Shown: positions 12,162 to 32,160 of the stretch, piece by piece
How the letters are laid out: every line of letters starts with the position of its first letter
Position numbering within the stretch: the stretch's first letter is position 1
Assembly (NCBI GenBank): GCA_024402895.1
Contig: JAKSSX010000001.1
Span: 86,090 to 150,089 of the forward strand
Direction of reading: 5' to 3'
DNA: 64,000 bases
DNA from: Candidatus Saccharimonadota bacterium
Lineage (GTDB): Bacteria > Patescibacteriota > Saccharimonadia > Saccharimonadales > Saccharimonadaceae
Notes under the pieces: model-generated
The model's database searches: none
The model's input: the letters and a program-made list of their open reading frames with translations, nothing else
Told to the model about the DNA's origin: nothing
Made by a program: the position numbers and the translations under genes

Positions 12162-12169
12162 GAAACCAT

Positions 12170-12469
12170 CAAAAAGCCGCAGGTAAGGGTGGGCATCACC
12201 TGCGGCTATTTAACCCTTTAAACACACCTTTCGTGGTACCGGAAGACGGAAGCGCGACCCACCTCACACAAATGGGGTCCGCCGGTTTAAAGGGGTTGCT
12301 AGCCATAGAAACGGTCATTCTAAGTGGAGGTAATACTTTTCACTTCAAACTATATAGGAGAAATTTGAAGGCTGAATGTGTTTCTATAGCACGCAACAAT
12401 TGTTAAAACAAAAGTTTTAACAAAGTTATAGATTATTTAGGTGCAGTACTTAGCCTTTCGGCTAAAACT
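12170..12469 (-). ncRNA. Probable stand-alone structured RNA of about 300 nt, unclassified
   Basis: No protein-coding frame of note covers this interval. A near-consensus promoter precedes it and an intrinsic terminator closes it. By eye, in transcript order, it holds: a TTAGCC-GAAA-GGCTAA tetraloop hairpin; a perfect GTTAAAAC-TTTT-GTTTTAAC hairpin; a long stem GTTGC...TATAGAAAC with GTTTCTATG...GCAAC enclosing two or three hairpins (CTTCAAA/TTTGAAG, AAGTG/CACTT, CATTC/GAATG); a second domain closed by CTTTAAAC/GTTTAAAG with inner ACCGG/CCGGT and GACCC/GGGTC pairings; and the terminator. Hallmarks of RNase P RNA (GAGGAAAGTCC, ACAGAA), SRP RNA (GGAAG tetraloop region), tmRNA (T-arm GGTTCGA) and 6S RNA (one long bubbled rod) were looked for and not found. 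It is not a leader: the next minus-strand gene (topA) lies beyond a plus-strand gene. Confidence 0.7.
12175..12207 (-). terminator. Intrinsic terminator of the ncRNA
   Basis: A perfect 10-bp stem, AGCCGCAGGT and ACCTGCGGCT, with a 13-nt loop. On the minus strand it is followed by TTTTTGATGG. In the plus direction it lies 13 nt past the surface-protein stop and may also help terminate that message. Confidence 0.88.
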
Positions 12470-12475
12470 GTCCTT

Positions 12476-12504
12476 ATTCTAGCACTAATTTGCAATAAAG
12501 TCAA
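12476..12504 (-). promoter_or_regulatory. Sigma-70-type promoter of the ncRNA
   Basis: On the minus strand TTGACT (12499-12504) and TAGAAT (12476-12481) are separated by exactly 17 nt. Predicted transcription start is near 12469. One mismatch to consensus in each box. Confidence 0.8.
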
Positions 12505-12542
12505 TACTTTTTGCATACTTTTTTGTAAAATCAATAGAAAAT

Positions 12543-12592
12543 AGCGCTTTTTGCTTCCCTGTTAGCAATATTTTAACAGGGGTCAAAGCGCT
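12543..12592. terminator. Long imperfect hairpin between pth and the ncRNA promoter
   Basis: Outer stem AGCGCTTT (12543-12550) with AAAGCGCT (12585-12592) and inner stem CCCTGTTA (12557-12564) with TAACAGGG (12574-12581). On the minus strand it comes 40 nt after the pth stop and is followed by T-rich sequence, so it probably ends the pth operon and insulates the ncRNA promoter. The rest of 12471-12634 is A/T-rich spacer. Confidence 0.7.
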
Positions 12593-12634
12593 TATTGTTA
12601 TTTTCTAAAAAAATGTTATAAAATCGGCGAAAAA

Positions 12635-18316: not shown

Positions 18317-18393
18317 GGTCCCGTCGTCTAGTGGTCCAGGACGTCTGGTTCTCATCCAGAAAATCAAGGGTTCGACTCCCTTCGGGATCACCA
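18317..18393 (+). tRNA. tRNA-Glu (CTC) with encoded CCA
   Basis: Cloverleaf read by eye: acceptor GGTCCCG with CGGGATC, anticodon stem TCTGG/CCAGA around the loop TTCTCAT (anticodon CTC), T arm AAGGG-TTCGACT-CCCTT, discriminator A and CCA encoded. 77 nt. A terminator hairpin follows. The accessory segment 18.4-21.2 kb begins right after it, making its 3' end a plausible old integration site, although no second copy of the 3' end was found. Confidence 0.97.
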
Positions 18394-18403
18394 CAGTGTG
18401 AAT

Positions 18404-18438
18404 TTAAGCAAGAAACGCCCGCAAGGGCGGTTCTTTTT
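18404..18438 (+). terminator. Terminator after tRNA-Glu
   Basis: AAGAA-CGCCC-GCAA-GGGCG-GTTCTTTTTT: a G/C-rich stem with a GCAA loop and a run of six T. Confidence 0.88.
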
Positions 18439-18484
18439 TATCTGTAAAATGGTCGGTAATTTAGTGGTTCCAAATTTTTCGCCA

Positions 18485-18601
18485 TCATACATCAAGCCAG
18501 CGGGAAAAAAGCCATTTTTGGAACCTGAACCTGATTTCTGGGTCGTCAATTTCCCGGAATGTGTCGGCTAGGTTTGAGAGTTTTTCTGCTCTAAATTCCA
18601 T
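18485..18601 (-). pseudogene. 38-codon ORF, possible remnant of a degraded gene
   Basis: The only sizeable frame in the stretch between the tRNA terminator and the next gene. It reads MEFRAEKLSNLADTFREIDD and continues to FSRWLDV and TGA. The same frame stays open upstream (ETTEDAVDL) into the hairpin at 18634, with no start or ribosome-binding site. The amphipathic composition looks protein-like, so it may be the tail of a decayed gene. No family recognised. Confidence 0.3.
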
Positions 18602-18633
18602 TAGGTCTACGGCGTCTTCCGTCGTTTCACAAA

Positions 18634-18661
18634 AAGAGAGCCGTTGGGGCTCTCTGTTTTT
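18634..18661. terminator. Terminator after the small acidic protein gene
   Basis: AGAGAGCC-GTTG-GGGCTCTCT with A-rich left and T-rich right flanks, so it can act in either direction; it lies just past the minus-strand stop at 18669. Confidence 0.85.
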
Positions 18662-18668
18662 GTGCTAT

Positions 18669-18917
18669 TTACTCAACCCAAACATCTTCGTCGGTTAATG
18701 ATTTCCAGATTTCTTTTATGATATGTCCATCGTAACTTTTTTCGATGAGTTCATCAACCGTCTTGGCACTTACTTCTGAGTCCGAGTCAGCCTCGTAGAA
18801 GTATAGGAGATTCTCTCCTGATACTTGGCTCCAGGTTATCCAGTAGATTTTGTCGTTGTATTTTAGTTTTATTTCTCGCCCCTCGTCTGTGAGTTGCTTT
18901 AGGTAGTCTATTGTCAT
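18669..18917 (-). CDS. Small acidic protein, candidate immunity protein
   Basis: 82 residues, acidic, soluble, with no signal or membrane segment; motifs such as YNDKIYWITWSQVSG and NLLYFYEADSD give no recognised family. Its ATG overlaps the stop of the upstream gene (four bases). That arrangement, the small acidic character and the toxin-like look of the upstream gene suggest an immunity protein or antitoxin. This is inference from context only. Last gene of the three-gene minus-strand operon. Confidence 0.6.
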   Translation of the reverse strand: MTIDYLKQLTDEGREIKLKYNDKIYWITWSQVSGENLLYFYEADSDSEVSAKTVDELIEKSYDGHIIKEIWKSLTDEDVWVE

Positions 18918-19267
18918 AATATCTCCTTTCCTTCGCCTCTTACTGGGCGACCATTCTTAAATTTTATCTCGTGTTGATGCGGAACGTTAGGGTGAAGCTT
19001 TGGGTTTCCGTGGTCGGAATAGTCAATGTCAAGATAAGCCTCTCCTCTTTCATTATAATACCGCTCGGATTCGAGCCTGCCATTTACGTAGTTTTGCGTG
19101 ACAGAATTAGGCGTAGCGCCTTTCATCGGTGTACTGTGCGCATTTTTCTGCTTATTAATCGTCTTCACTGTACCGACGAGGCTAGATTTGGCTGAATTGT
19201 AACTGATTGATTGATTTGCTTTTTGGCCTGTCGTACCGCTAAAGTGTCCACTATTGCCCTTACTCAT
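18914..19267 (-). CDS. Candidate small toxin with a DIDY-HGNPxxHPxVPHxH motif
   Basis: 117 residues. The N-terminal half is polar and Ser/Asn/Lys-rich (SKGNSGHFSGTTGQKANQS) without a signal peptide. The C-terminal half holds YYNERGEAYLDIDYSDHGNP and then HPNVPHQHEIKF, a His/Asp-rich pattern I associate with C-terminal domains of bacterial polymorphic toxins and with phage-type small proteins; the exact family name is not certain. Several His and Asp residues could be catalytic. It overlaps the DUF4417 gene upstream by 8 nt and the putative immunity gene downstream by 4 nt. Lacking a secretion domain, it would act inside the cell or be delivered by another route. Confidence 0.55.
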   Translation of the reverse strand: MSKGNSGHFSGTTGQKANQSISYNSAKSSLVGTVKTINKQKNAHSTPMKGATPNSVTQNYVNGRLESERYYNERGEAYLDIDYSDHGNPKLHPNVPHQHEIKFKNGRPVRGEGKEIL

Positions 19268-19979
19268 GGTTCTTGCTCCTTCGTTCGAAGGCGTTGGCGG
19301 TTGCGCTTTTGTATTCCACGATTTTTATGCCGTCGGTGCGCAGCTTATCGAAGCATGGGTACTTTGCTGAGCCATAGACGATAATTACTTTTGGTGAAAG
19401 ACGTCGCACTAGCTTATCTAGTCCCTCTTCGAAGCGAAGACGATCTACGAGTTTGTTTGGGCTGCCACCAACGGTTCCGATTGCTATGGTGCTGTTACTA
19501 TCGATACCGTCGAAGCAATAATCGAAGGTTTCTTCGGTACCCCAACGAACGCTATTGATGACTTCAAGTCCATTTCTACCACACCAGTAACCAAATGCGC
19601 GCATTCGGTAGGTGTTATATAATTTGACTGGGTATGGGAAGTCCTGATATGTCGAAAAGTCCGGAGTAACTATACCCCTGAAATGAGACAGAATTTCGAG
19701 CGAGCGATGCGGTTGTGCCCAAATCCCCGCTCGAGTTCCGTCGAACTTCTGATCGTCTATATAGAAACAGACGAATGCGTTGTCTTTGAATGACGGGTCC
19801 TTACTAATTTGTTTTTTATATATTGATTTTGCTTCGACCCACGTAATAATACGTGACGGATTTTCAGTTATTATTGTTGGGCAGTGCGGAACATCGTTGG
19901 GCGACCATTTGGCGCCTTCGCACATGAACGCATTCCAAGTATCTATGATTCCTGGCCTTGCGGATCTTTTTGTAATCAT
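19260..19979 (-). CDS. DUF4417 domain protein
   Basis: 239 residues, almost all one domain. Diagnostic segments for DUF4417 are VCFYIDDQKFDGTRAGIW, HFRGIVTPDFSTYQDFPYP, KLYNTYRMRAFGYWCGRNG and KVIIVYGSAKYPCF. The family is common in phages, plasmids and mobile islands; its biochemical role is not established. A short Shine-Dalgarno-like AGGAG lies just upstream of the ATG. First gene of a tight operon with the candidate toxin and the small acidic protein, and divergent from the XRE regulator at 20188, which may control it. Confidence 0.8.
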   Translation of the reverse strand: MITKRSARPGIIDTWNAFMCEGAKWSPNDVPHCPTIITENPSRIITWVEAKSIYKKQISKDPSFKDNAFVCFYIDDQKFDGTRAGIWAQPHRSLEILSHFRGIVTPDFSTYQDFPYPVKLYNTYRMRAFGYWCGRNGLEVINSVRWGTEETFDYCFDGIDSNSTIAIGTVGGSPNKLVDRLRFEEGLDKLVRRLSPKVIIVYGSAKYPCFDKLRTDGIKIVEYKSATANAFERRSKNHE

Positions 19980-20102
19980 GCGGATTTCTCCTGATTAAAT
20001 TTGTTATCTGTCATGATTCTATGGGTTTGAAAACAGATTAAATATCTGATTTTTTCCTAAGTACTTTTACCGAAACGTCATAAGCTCGAAACCGATATAT
20101 TG

Positions 20103-20175
20103 TTATGCTTCGGCATAAGTGATATTATCTAATTAGATAAGTATTATCTTGTTCCATATATTAATTTATCTAATT
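20103..20175. promoter_or_regulatory. Operator-like palindrome and half-site before the XRE regulator
   Basis: A perfect 16-bp palindrome TTATCTAATTAGATAA (20125-20140), and a half-site TTATCTAATT repeated at 20166-20175, 13 nt before the XRE start codon. Just upstream TTATGC-TTCG-GCATAA (20103-20118) forms a UUCG-capped hairpin. The layout is typical of an XRE autorepressor controlling itself and the divergent operon. Confidence 0.55.
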
Positions 20176-20187
20176 GGAGTTGTGTCT

Positions 20188-20718
20188 ATGGATATTAAAA
20201 CTAGGCGGAATCAGAAAAAGTTAGTTGGAGAGCGAATTCGTGCGGCTAGAAAGGCGAAGAATTATACTCAGTCAAAACTGCAAGAATTGACCGGAATTCA
20301 GGTCTCGTCGATTAGCGAATTTGAGAATGGGCGTAGTCTTCCAAATATTGAATCGGTAGCTAAAATTGCTGAAAAACTCGAAGTATCAATCGACAGCCTG
20401 TGGTATGGCGATAAAACAGTTGCTTTTATTGAGAGCGCACCGAACTATGGCGCTAAAATCGTCAACGCATATGCAATGTTGAAGGCGAGCGGCGTGTTAA
20501 AAACTTTCGAACGCAATAATAATGGGATGTCATATGTCTCTATTACTAAGCATGGTGGGCCATTAGAGCGTCTTCACACATCATTAGATGAATTTTACGG
20601 TAACTATAACACTTATTCCGAGCCATTTGTTTTTGAAAAGCAATTAAAAGAATCTGTTGCTAATAGTATTAATAACGAGATTAAGCAGGCTGAGGCGCGC
20701 AGACGCATGGGTCTTTAG
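20188..20718 (+). CDS. XRE-family transcription regulator
   Basis: 176 residues from the ATG at 20188, preceded by a GGAG about 10 nt upstream; the longer frame from 20149 runs through the putative operator half-site and is rejected. Residues 10-65 form a Cro/CI HTH (ERIRAARKAKNYTQSKLQEL, then GIQVSSISEFENGRSLPNIE, and ends LEVSIDSLWYGD). The remaining 110 residues are helical and may dimerise or sense a ligand. It probably represses itself and the divergent DUF4417-toxin-immunity operon through the palindrome at 20125-20140. A terminator follows at 20841. Confidence 0.9.
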   Translation: MDIKTRRNQKKLVGERIRAARKAKNYTQSKLQELTGIQVSSISEFENGRSLPNIESVAKIAEKLEVSIDSLWYGDKTVAFIESAPNYGAKIVNAYAMLKASGVLKTFERNNNGMSYVSITKHGGPLERLHTSLDEFYGNYNTYSEPFVFEKQLKESVANSINNEIKQAEARRRMGL

Positions 20719-29974: not shown

Positions 29975-30811
29975 TTAGAACTCGTAATCGTCAGGAATGA
30001 ATGTGACGTCTGTTCTGCCGACTGATCTAGTGAAAGCATCCCAGTTGTTTTCGTCTGGATTTCCAGTGCTATTGTAGGAAGGATTCTCGTACCAGCCTAC
30101 AGATATACTGCCGTCAGAGTTCGCTGTTACCTTGAGCATTCTAAGTTCATAGCATGCGTGACCGACATAAGGCCAAACTACTATAGCGTAGCGTGTGTCG
30201 CTTGCAATTACTGTTTCGGAATACTCAATGTAGTAGCCCTGACCAGTAATCCATGAATCGAATGCTCCGAGTTCTGCCTCGGCTGCTGCTCTCAAATCTT
30301 CCATTGTAACTACGGGAGTAGGTGCCTCTGTTGGAGCCACTGTAGGAGCTGTAGTTGGAGCCTGCGTTGGAGGTGCAGGTGGTGCTTCAGTAGGTGGAGC
30401 TGGAGGATTAGTTGGAGCTGTTGTTGGCGCCTGGGTAGGTGGAGGAGGTGCCTGCGTTGTAGCAGGTGGTGCTGTTGGTGCCGTAGTCGCTGTAGGGGCC
30501 TGCGTAGTTGTAGGCGCTGTTGTTGACGTAGGCGCTGTTGTCGGTGTTGTTGTTGGCGTAGCCGTTGGTGTTGGAGTTGGCGTAGAAGTTGTAGTTACTT
30601 CAATATCCGCTCCGTCATCGATGTCCGCATTAGGCTCATCTGGCATATCCAATTCTTCCATAGTAGAGTTGTCCTCTGCCTGCAAAGCTGCTGGCTTCTC
30701 GTCTTCGCCGCATGCTGTAAGCATAGTGAGACAAAGGCTGAGAATGATAGCTATGCTAATTACCTTCATAAGTCTTGAGGTAAGAAGCTTGTTTTTTGTT
30801 TCCTTTTTCAT
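29975..30811 (-). CDS. Lipoprotein with long Pro/Thr/Ala-rich stalk and small C-terminal domain
   Basis: 278 residues from the ATG at 30811, which has AAAGGAC upstream; an in-frame ATG at 30874 would add 21 residues before the signal. The signal region (MKVISIAIILSLCLTM) ends with the lipobox LTAC, Cys34. After an acidic stretch, about 110 residues are a Thr/Pro/Ala/Gln stalk built of short repeats such as TQAPTTAPT, a likely glycosylation or cell-wall-spanning spacer. The final 110 residues are a compact domain with GYYIEYSETVIASDTRYAIV and GWYENPSYN, of no recognised family. Exposed on the outer face. A long leader with two hairpins precedes it (30875-30953). Confidence 0.8.
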   Translation of the reverse strand: MKKETKNKLLTSRLMKVISIAIILSLCLTMLTACGEDEKPAALQAEDNSTMEELDMPDEPNADIDDGADIEVTTTSTPTPTPTATPTTTPTTAPTSTTAPTTTQAPTATTAPTAPPATTQAPPPPTQAPTTAPTNPPAPPTEAPPAPPTQAPTTAPTVAPTEAPTPVVTMEDLRAAAEAELGAFDSWITGQGYYIEYSETVIASDTRYAIVVWPYVGHACYELRMLKVTANSDGSISVGWYENPSYNSTGNPDENNWDAFTRSVGRTDVTFIPDDYEF

Positions 30812-30874
30812 ACTTTTACCAGTCCTTTCGAGTTTGGTCTTGAAAATTCCGAACACTTCATAAGATTCGCACAT

Positions 30875-30988
30875 AAAGAAAAAAGATTCTCCTTCTCCCT
30901 CAATCTTCTAAATGTGCAATTTAATCGATGAATGTGATCTATCGATTAAAACTGTGGTTATTATGCCACATAGTTTAGAATGTTTCAA
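30875..30988 (-). promoter_or_regulatory. Lipoprotein gene promoter and two-hairpin leader
   Basis: On the minus strand TTGAAA (30983-30988), 17 nt, CATAAT (30960-30965, preceded by TGG), start near 30953. The transcript soon forms a perfect 10-bp stem TTTAATCGAT/ATCGATTAAA (30920-30929 with 30941-30950). About 7 nt later AAGATT...AATCTTTTTT forms a terminator-like hairpin whose loop is purine-rich (GGGAGAAGGAG). Confidence 0.5.
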
Positions 30989-31005: not shown

Positions 31006-31034
31006 TTGACGGAAAAGCGATATTGTGGTTTAAT
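31006..31034 (+). promoter_or_regulatory. Promoter of the second structured RNA
   Basis: TTGACG (31006-31011; a second copy at 31000-31005), 17 nt, TTTAAT (31029-31034) with extended TGG. Six nt later ATG TGG TTC TTT TAG (31041-31055) forms a four-codon mini-ORF at the probable RNA 5' end. Confidence 0.65.
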
Positions 31035-31040
31035 GGGCAA

Positions 31041-31382
31041 ATGTGGTTCTTTTAGGCGGCTTTTTATACAATCTTTCTTTCGAAGTTTGTTAATTGTACA
31101 TTGCGGTAAAAAAGAGGTTTTTATGAAAGCAAGTTAAATGTAGTTTTAGCTTGCAAAGCCAACGATCGAGATTTGGAATTGCCAAATGGTTAGGATTTTA
31201 AAATATGGGCACACGAGGTTCGTGATGCGCCACAAATCCAGAATCGGTCATGATGCTTCTAGTTAGAGTTGTTTACTCTACGGTCATAGAAGTGCTCGCT
31301 GGTTGCGAGGTTTTCGAACATTTCGTCCGCCTGAAAGAACCCACCTCTAATATATGCCCCGTCATCTGGCGGGGCTCTTTTT
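31041..31382 (+). ncRNA. Probable stand-alone structured RNA of about 340 nt with paired ends, unclassified
   Basis: No long ORF. The 5' end (31043-31059) pairs with 31327-31344 over 17 bp with one bulge. Inside, by eye: TACAAT/ATTGTA hairpin (31066-31099 region); GCAAG/CTTGC hairpin; ATTTGG-AATTG-CCAAAT hairpin extended by CCAAC/GTTAGG; a GGATTT/AAATCC stem enclosing GGC-CACGA-GGT-TCGTG-GCC; CTTCTA/TAGAAG enclosing TAGAGT-TGTTT-ACTCTA; and CTCGC-TGGTT-GCGAG. GAGGT and ACCTC may add a further long-range pairing. A G/C-rich terminator ends it. RNase P, SRP, tmRNA and 6S signatures were looked for and not found. The terminator precedes the separate promoter of the next gene, so this is not a riboswitch leader. 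Confidence 0.72.
31356..31382 (+). terminator. Terminator of the second structured RNA
   Basis: GCCCCG (31356-31361) with CGGGGC (31370-31375), then TCTTTTT; the next gene's TATAAT begins at 31387. Confidence 0.88.
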
Positions 31383-31398
31383 ATGCTATAATTCGCTT

Positions 31399-32160
31399 AT
31401 GGTTAAACAAAAACAAAAATCAGATTTAAATGTTGTTGCAATTATCTTAGCGATTGTCGCTTTGCTCGCTATTGTCGGAGTGATTTGCTTAGCTTGGTTC
31501 TTGGCGATTGCGAACGAAAAAATTGAGCACCTCGAAAAGCAGAATGAAGAATTGAGCGCCGAATGTGACTCTGAGGCGCCGGGTCGGATTGATGATTGGG
31601 GTGATTTTGTTGTTAAGAAACCTTTGATTTATTTATACCCTACTGAAGAGACGGAAGTTTCAGTAAAACTTGGCAATGCTGACAAGTTGACGTCTAGCTA
31701 TCCAAAATACGATAAGGGCTGGAATGTTGTGGCGCAAAAGGATGGTAGTTTGGTTGATAAAAATACGGGTCGCTCTTTGTATGGTTTGTATTGGGAGGGT
31801 GCAAATTATCCGGCGAAGCAGAATGAAGAAGGCTTTGTTGTTGCCGGAAAAGATGCTGCAAGCTTCTTGGAAGAAAAGTTAGCGCAGCTTGGTTTGACTG
31901 AGCGCGAGGCGAACGAGATGATTATTTATTGGTTGCCTCAGCTAGAGAAAAATGCCTATAACTATATTCGTTTTGATTTGAATGAAGTGATGGATGGATA
32001 TATGCCGCTAAATATTGCACCGAAACCAGATACGGTAATTCGCGTTTCGATGGTATTTAAGGGGCTTGATGCGCCGATGTCTGTGCGCGAGCAGAAGTTG
32101 CCGAAGAAAGAGCGCAAAGGATTTACTGTTGTAGAGTGGGGCGGCAGCGAAATTAAGTAG
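31399..32160 (+). CDS. Membrane-anchored protein with KPxIYLYP domain
   Basis: 253 residues from the ATG at 31399; an open frame from 31354 runs through the preceding terminator and is rejected. TGC TATAAT (31387-31392) ends exactly 6 nt before it with no Shine-Dalgarno, so it is probably leaderless. One transmembrane helix (about 11-34), a short coiled coil (NEKIEHLEKQNEELSAE), then an exterior domain starting KKPLIYLYPTEETEVSVKL and containing GLYWEGANYP and GFVVAGKDAASFLEEKL. The KPxIYLYP domain is widespread in bacteria as a secreted or anchored unit of unknown function. A good terminator follows at 32166. Confidence 0.8.
   Translation: MVKQKQKSDLNVVAIILAIVALLAIVGVICLAWFLAIANEKIEHLEKQNEELSAECDSEAPGRIDDWGDFVVKKPLIYLYPTEETEVSVKLGNADKLTSSYPKYDKGWNVVAQKDGSLVDKNTGRSLYGLYWEGANYPAKQNEEGFVVAGKDAASFLEEKLAQLGLTEREANEMIIYWLPQLEKNAYNYIRFDLNEVMDGYMPLNIAPKPDTVIRVSMVFKGLDAPMSVREQKLPKKERKGFTVVEWGGSEIK

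Follow-up and report, generated by a model that had tools for sequence, protein, structure and literature searches.

A candidate structured small RNA with its own predicted promoter and terminator in an accessory locus of a Saccharibacteria genome

The locus and its predicted transcription unit

The source genome (G000) comprises 785 kb in 21 contigs, is 87.8% complete and has an apparently fragmented assembly; relatives such as L085 point to a Saccharibacteria lineage. The window, the stretch of 64 kb analysed here, contains an ORF-poor interval bordered by two genes: one at 29975-30874, read from the minus strand, is lipoprotein-like, and the other, on the plus strand with its ATG at 31399, encodes a membrane protein. 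Both neighbours are accessory genes, the lipoprotein gene having a match in the congener G034 only, and the region that holds them has gltX and relA/uvrB-type genes at its borders. A perfect palindrome, TTTAATCGAT-11-ATCGATTAAA (30919-30949), lies close to where the lipoprotein transcript is predicted to begin; in this position G034 carries a different hairpin. Farther away in the window, a tRNA-Glu (18317) adjoins a DUF4417 gene (19260-19979) matching a phage nuclease family; a small gene nearby (18914-19267) weakly matches the terminal part of a toxin family encoded by phages, an HTH gene follows at 20149-20718, and the whole stretch (18317-20718) is perhaps a small integrated element. The features of the interval are the following.

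31006..31034, plus strand: extended sigma-70 promoter TTGACG-17-TTTAAT, of a type with 38 sites genome-wide
31041..31382, plus strand: predicted RNA of ~340 nt, fold z -4.96, no Rfam match, not found elsewhere
31043..31059, plus strand: 5' strand of the closing stem P1
31068..31107, plus strand: two weakly supported hairpins (31068-31090 and 31093-31107), pair probabilities 0.4-0.6
31116..31160, plus strand: hairpin whose distal arm (31129-31138/31145-31154) has a pair probability of ~1
31164..31249, plus strand: long arm capped by a hairpin at 31206-31232; part of 31184-31205 is single-stranded
31255..31293, plus strand: hairpin with an inner stem at 31264-31280
31295..31309, plus strand: 5-bp hairpin CUCGC/GCGAG
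31310..31326, plus strand: weakly paired stretch GUUUUCGAACAUUUCGU
31327..31344, plus strand: 3' strand of P1
31356..31382, plus strand: intrinsic terminator, an 8-bp stem (31356-31375) followed by TCTTTTT
31384..31401, plus strand: outside the RNA, predicted leaderless promoter of the next gene, with extended -10 TGCTATAAT, 6-nt spacing and ATG; the extended -10 is kept in G034 (L003)

An earlier note on this DNA, drawn from the letters alone, had described an interval poor in ORFs between a promoter and a terminator, and both elements were recovered at 31006-31034 and 31356-31382. The promoter consists of TTGACG (31006-31011), a 17-nt spacer and TTTAAT (31029-31034); a TG at 31026-31027 makes the -10 an extended one, and the predicted transcription start falls at ~31041. 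It escaped a generic promoter scan because that scan requires an A at position 2 of the -10 box, which TTTAAT lacks. Genome-wide, TTGACA-like boxes (at least 5/6 identical) precede TATAAT by 17 nt in 52 cases, versus 2-5 at other spacings, and the pattern TTGACN-17-(TGN)TWTAAT occurs at 38 sites on both strands where base-composition arithmetic predicts ~0.1. The promoter is thus a good match to the style of this genome. As to coding capacity, the stop-to-stop frames of the interval gave no Pfam or PHROG family above cut-off, the lone sub-threshold match being to MreD (E 0.0086); a hidden gene or coding remnant was rejected on these grounds and for want of a noteworthy ORF. Judged by its predicted promoter, its terminator and its lack of an ORF, the candidate resembles a stand-alone small RNA, and an independent RNA unit is plausible. 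To this extent the ~340-nt non-coding RNA proposed in the earlier note holds as a predicted unit.

Predicted fold and chance expectation

The complementarity of 17 bp reported earlier between 31043-31059 and 31327-31344 is real: P1 comprises 15 contiguous pairs, one of them G-U, and two more beyond a bulge, with pair probabilities of ~1.0 across 31047-31057. Inside this stem, fold prediction returns a multi-branched interior with several hairpins. The fold z-score of 31035-31385 is -4.96, the most extreme among 375 segments of 306 nt sampled across the 64-kb stretch. P1 is the source of most of this score, the interior alone reaching only -2.09. The minus strand folds nearly equally (z -4.74), so that the orientation of the RNA rests on its promoter and terminator. 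Counting both strands, the genome has eight helices of at least 15 bp with a span of 150-420, where Markov sequence gives 5-6 per strand; only two of these eight are non-coding. By arithmetic, the chance of such a helix in this very interval is ~0.002, with about ten per genome arising by chance, and a stem of the P1 type is therefore not rare genome-wide. Equal or better fold scores also occur in several intergenic regions elsewhere in the genome, some of them RNA genes and some unannotated. Since other regions fold as strongly and the z-score comes mostly from P1, the fold is notable without being decisive, and more weight falls on promoter, stem and terminator occurring together.

Three unclassified folded regions were recorded in passing, all intergenic and none with an Rfam match. 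One, again strongly folded, belongs to the gap 12162-12634: the segment 12341-12646 reaches z of about -4.5 to -4.7 on either strand, and a neighbouring stretch (12206-12310, minus strand) has a closing stem CCCUUUAAAC/GUUUAAAGGG around several hairpins. L122 (G000:C15:55598-56097) holds long inverted repeats nested in one another (GTCTTAAATCAATTT / AAATTGATTTAAGAC), as well as repeats of the unit GATTTAAGACA. L106 (G000:C12:5338-5622) is a very stable rod-like hairpin and the strongest fold among all long intergenic gaps of the genome.

Known RNA families, distribution and the empty site

The covariance models of Rfam 15, the check suggested in the earlier note, gave nothing above the gathering cut-off for the candidate RNA and nothing convincing at E<=10; the best match (E 0.63) lies upstream of it on the minus strand. 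RNase P RNA and tmRNA share with it a similar length (350-370 nt) and an end-to-end closing stem, but high-scoring copies of both lie elsewhere in the genome (G000:C10 and G000:C8). Either identity was rejected in view of these separate copies and of the missing model match here, in line with the earlier note, which had found none of the conserved segments of the universal RNAs. In the ~640 of 785 kb of G000 that were scanned with Rfam, neither SRP RNA nor 6S RNA gave a match at the cut-off, and a motif search for SRP RNA found none; these missing matches are not taken as a sign that the candidate is either RNA. The ornate large bacterial RNAs GOLLD, ROOL and OLE (PMC12286853) are likewise structured, non-coding and without evident protein product, but Rfam links the candidate to none of them and its distribution is far narrower.

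With blastn, no second copy was found in the genome itself and no homologue in 100 relatives and 44 congeners, the congeners yielding only short chance-level matches and none at E<0.01. The same blastn settings recovered RNase P RNA at 79-92% identity and tmRNA at 73-90% (E<=1e-48) in the congeners sampled. A single-sequence covariance model (R1) retrieved the query alone from 394 family, 393 order and 380 phylum genomes, in overlapping samples and in searches that combined a coarse first look with strict filters. Such models are weak below roughly 60-65% identity. Among phages and plasmids the best distant blastn hits were 22-nt chance matches, and exact patterns in viral contigs stayed at chance level, two matches (L083/L084) sharing just an 18-mer. 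A script that examined the weak congener matches for reading frames and a closing stem placed most of them in coding sequence; one of them (L036) was rejected as the terminator following a coding gene. No such RNA lies upstream of the inspected paralogues of the downstream gene or of the L085 homologue. The search produced no homologues to align for covariation of the stems, the check that the earlier note had asked for, and the suggestion made there, of an RNA possibly new to CPR bacteria, is not supported by the genomes searched: the sequence was found in one genome only.

G034 possesses homologues of both flanking genes, its downstream protein being 68% identical, and a short AT-rich gap replaces promoter, RNA and terminator between them. 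As all three are jointly absent between homologous genes, the unit behaves as a cassette. Gain in this lineage, loss from the others or divergence past recognition could each explain this distribution, gain being the most economical account. A mobile element with P1 as its terminal repeats was rejected, since the sequence is single copy and since the promoter and terminator, which lie outside the repeats, are also absent from the empty site.

A putative regulatory RNA and its alternatives

The reading that we favour, with a probability of roughly 0.55, is that of a lineage-specific, independently transcribed, structured small RNA with a regulatory role in an accessory locus. It is favoured because promoter and terminator frame the fold exactly, P1 beginning 2-3 nt past the predicted start, because the fold ranks first among the sampled segments, and because the interval has no ORF and no protein-family match above cut-off. 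The cassette-like absence of the unit from G034 speaks for it too. The absence from congeners fits as well, given that identical settings readily detect the housekeeping RNAs of the genus. Regulatory small RNAs usually turn over fast, and the candidate is probably a young species-specific RNA of this kind, not a class shared across Saccharibacteria. RNA polymerase would start at ~31041 from a strong extended promoter and stop at the terminator near 31382, giving a presumably stable product in which the 17-bp end-to-end stem closes the RNA body and a separate terminator hairpin follows at the 3' end. The segments 31108-31128, 31184-31205 and 31310-31326 would be exposed as single strands and could pair with mRNAs, the likeliest role being post-transcriptional regulation by base-pairing. 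Intergenic trans-acting small RNAs of bacteria, of which the multi-hairpin regulator RNAIII of Staphylococcus is an example, show the same stand-alone promoter, intrinsic terminator, several hairpins and end-to-end pairing, and are also poorly conserved beyond close relatives. The candidate differs from them in having no sequence or model match and only a putative target.

The divergently transcribed lipoprotein mRNA may be that target. Among the start regions of ~738 predicted genes against which the RNA was scanned, its 5' leader (around 30849-30865, minus strand) could pair over ~15 bp with 31310-31326 and is the best of all when this segment is considered alone. With the whole RNA and accessibility counted it ranks 18 of ~738, which is not significant, and no start region of the set gave a significant target; the adjacent mRNA is accordingly a weak candidate. 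Against the small RNA reading stand the lack of a homologue, and hence of covariation, the lack of a significant target, the interior z of -2.1, the comparable intergenic folds and the fragmented assembly.

The main rival is a non-functional spacer, a recent insertion or decaying stretch, perhaps transcribed, in which promoter, inverted repeat and terminator would have met by chance. Its presence in a single genome, the modest interior fold, the number of 15-bp helices expected per genome and the equally good folds of other intergenic regions all agree with this account; what speaks against it is that a promoter type expected ~0.1 times per genome, a long stem at the predicted start and a terminator coincide within 340 nt, and we hold it to be possible but rather unlikely. 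Another explanation places the candidate in a wider, very fast-evolving Saccharibacteria RNA class whose members are too divergent for blastn and a single-sequence model. The weakness of such a model, the coarseness and strict filtering of the large searches and the presence in this genome of further intergenic regions that fold strongly and are unclassified leave room for it, but the site is empty in G034, the relative with the closest downstream protein, no RNA accompanies the inspected paralogues or the L085 homologue, and the candidate weak matches are mainly coding. We regard this class as improbable.

Readings that tie the RNA to neighbouring or partner genes fare worse. A leaderless micro-ORF or attenuator is conceivable, as ATG TGG TTC TTT TAG (Met-Trp-Phe-Phe-stop) stands at the predicted start and overlaps the 5' strand of P1, so that its translation would open P1 and could alter the fate of the RNA. 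Its 6-nt distance from the -10 box is the preferred leaderless spacing: genome-wide, 37 of 166 TGNTATAAT sites have an ATG exactly 6 nt downstream, the commonest spacing, which suggests that leaderless transcription is widespread in this organism. An ATG at a given position has a chance of ~1/64, however, the peptide counts just four residues and the next gene, having its own promoter, leaves nothing to attenuate, which makes this reading very unlikely. The accessory position and the terminal inverted arms, reminiscent of the end pairing of retron RNAs, could also point to an RNA that works with a mobile or defence element, be it a retron or the guide RNA of a TnpB or Cas12-like nuclease. In this genome, ~88% complete, neither a reverse transcriptase domain (RVT_1) nor a TnpB/Cas12f domain (PF07282) was detected, no partner gene of either type is adjacent and the RNA is single copy; this highly improbable option is largely refuted. 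Scarcely credible, finally, is a 5' leader or riboswitch of the membrane protein gene. The RNA does lie directly upstream on the same strand with a terminator hairpin at its end, but an extended -10 belonging to the downstream gene itself sits on the 3' side of that terminator, six nt before the ATG, and G034 preserves this box while lacking the RNA. The sequence gives no indication of co-transcription, and the earlier exclusion of a leader seems correct.

A literature search surfaced no paper on regulatory RNAs of Saccharibacteria, and such RNAs are little known in these tiny epibionts. That the candidate founded a new Saccharibacteria class of ~300-nt RNAs with a long terminal stem, the others having diverged beyond sequence detection, is a long shot. 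Taken alone, the sequence is one orphan candidate that changes little until its transcript is seen. As a lineage-specific small RNA, with its clean predicted unit and the empty site in a congener, it would offer a workable test case for the gain of a small RNA in a reduced genome.
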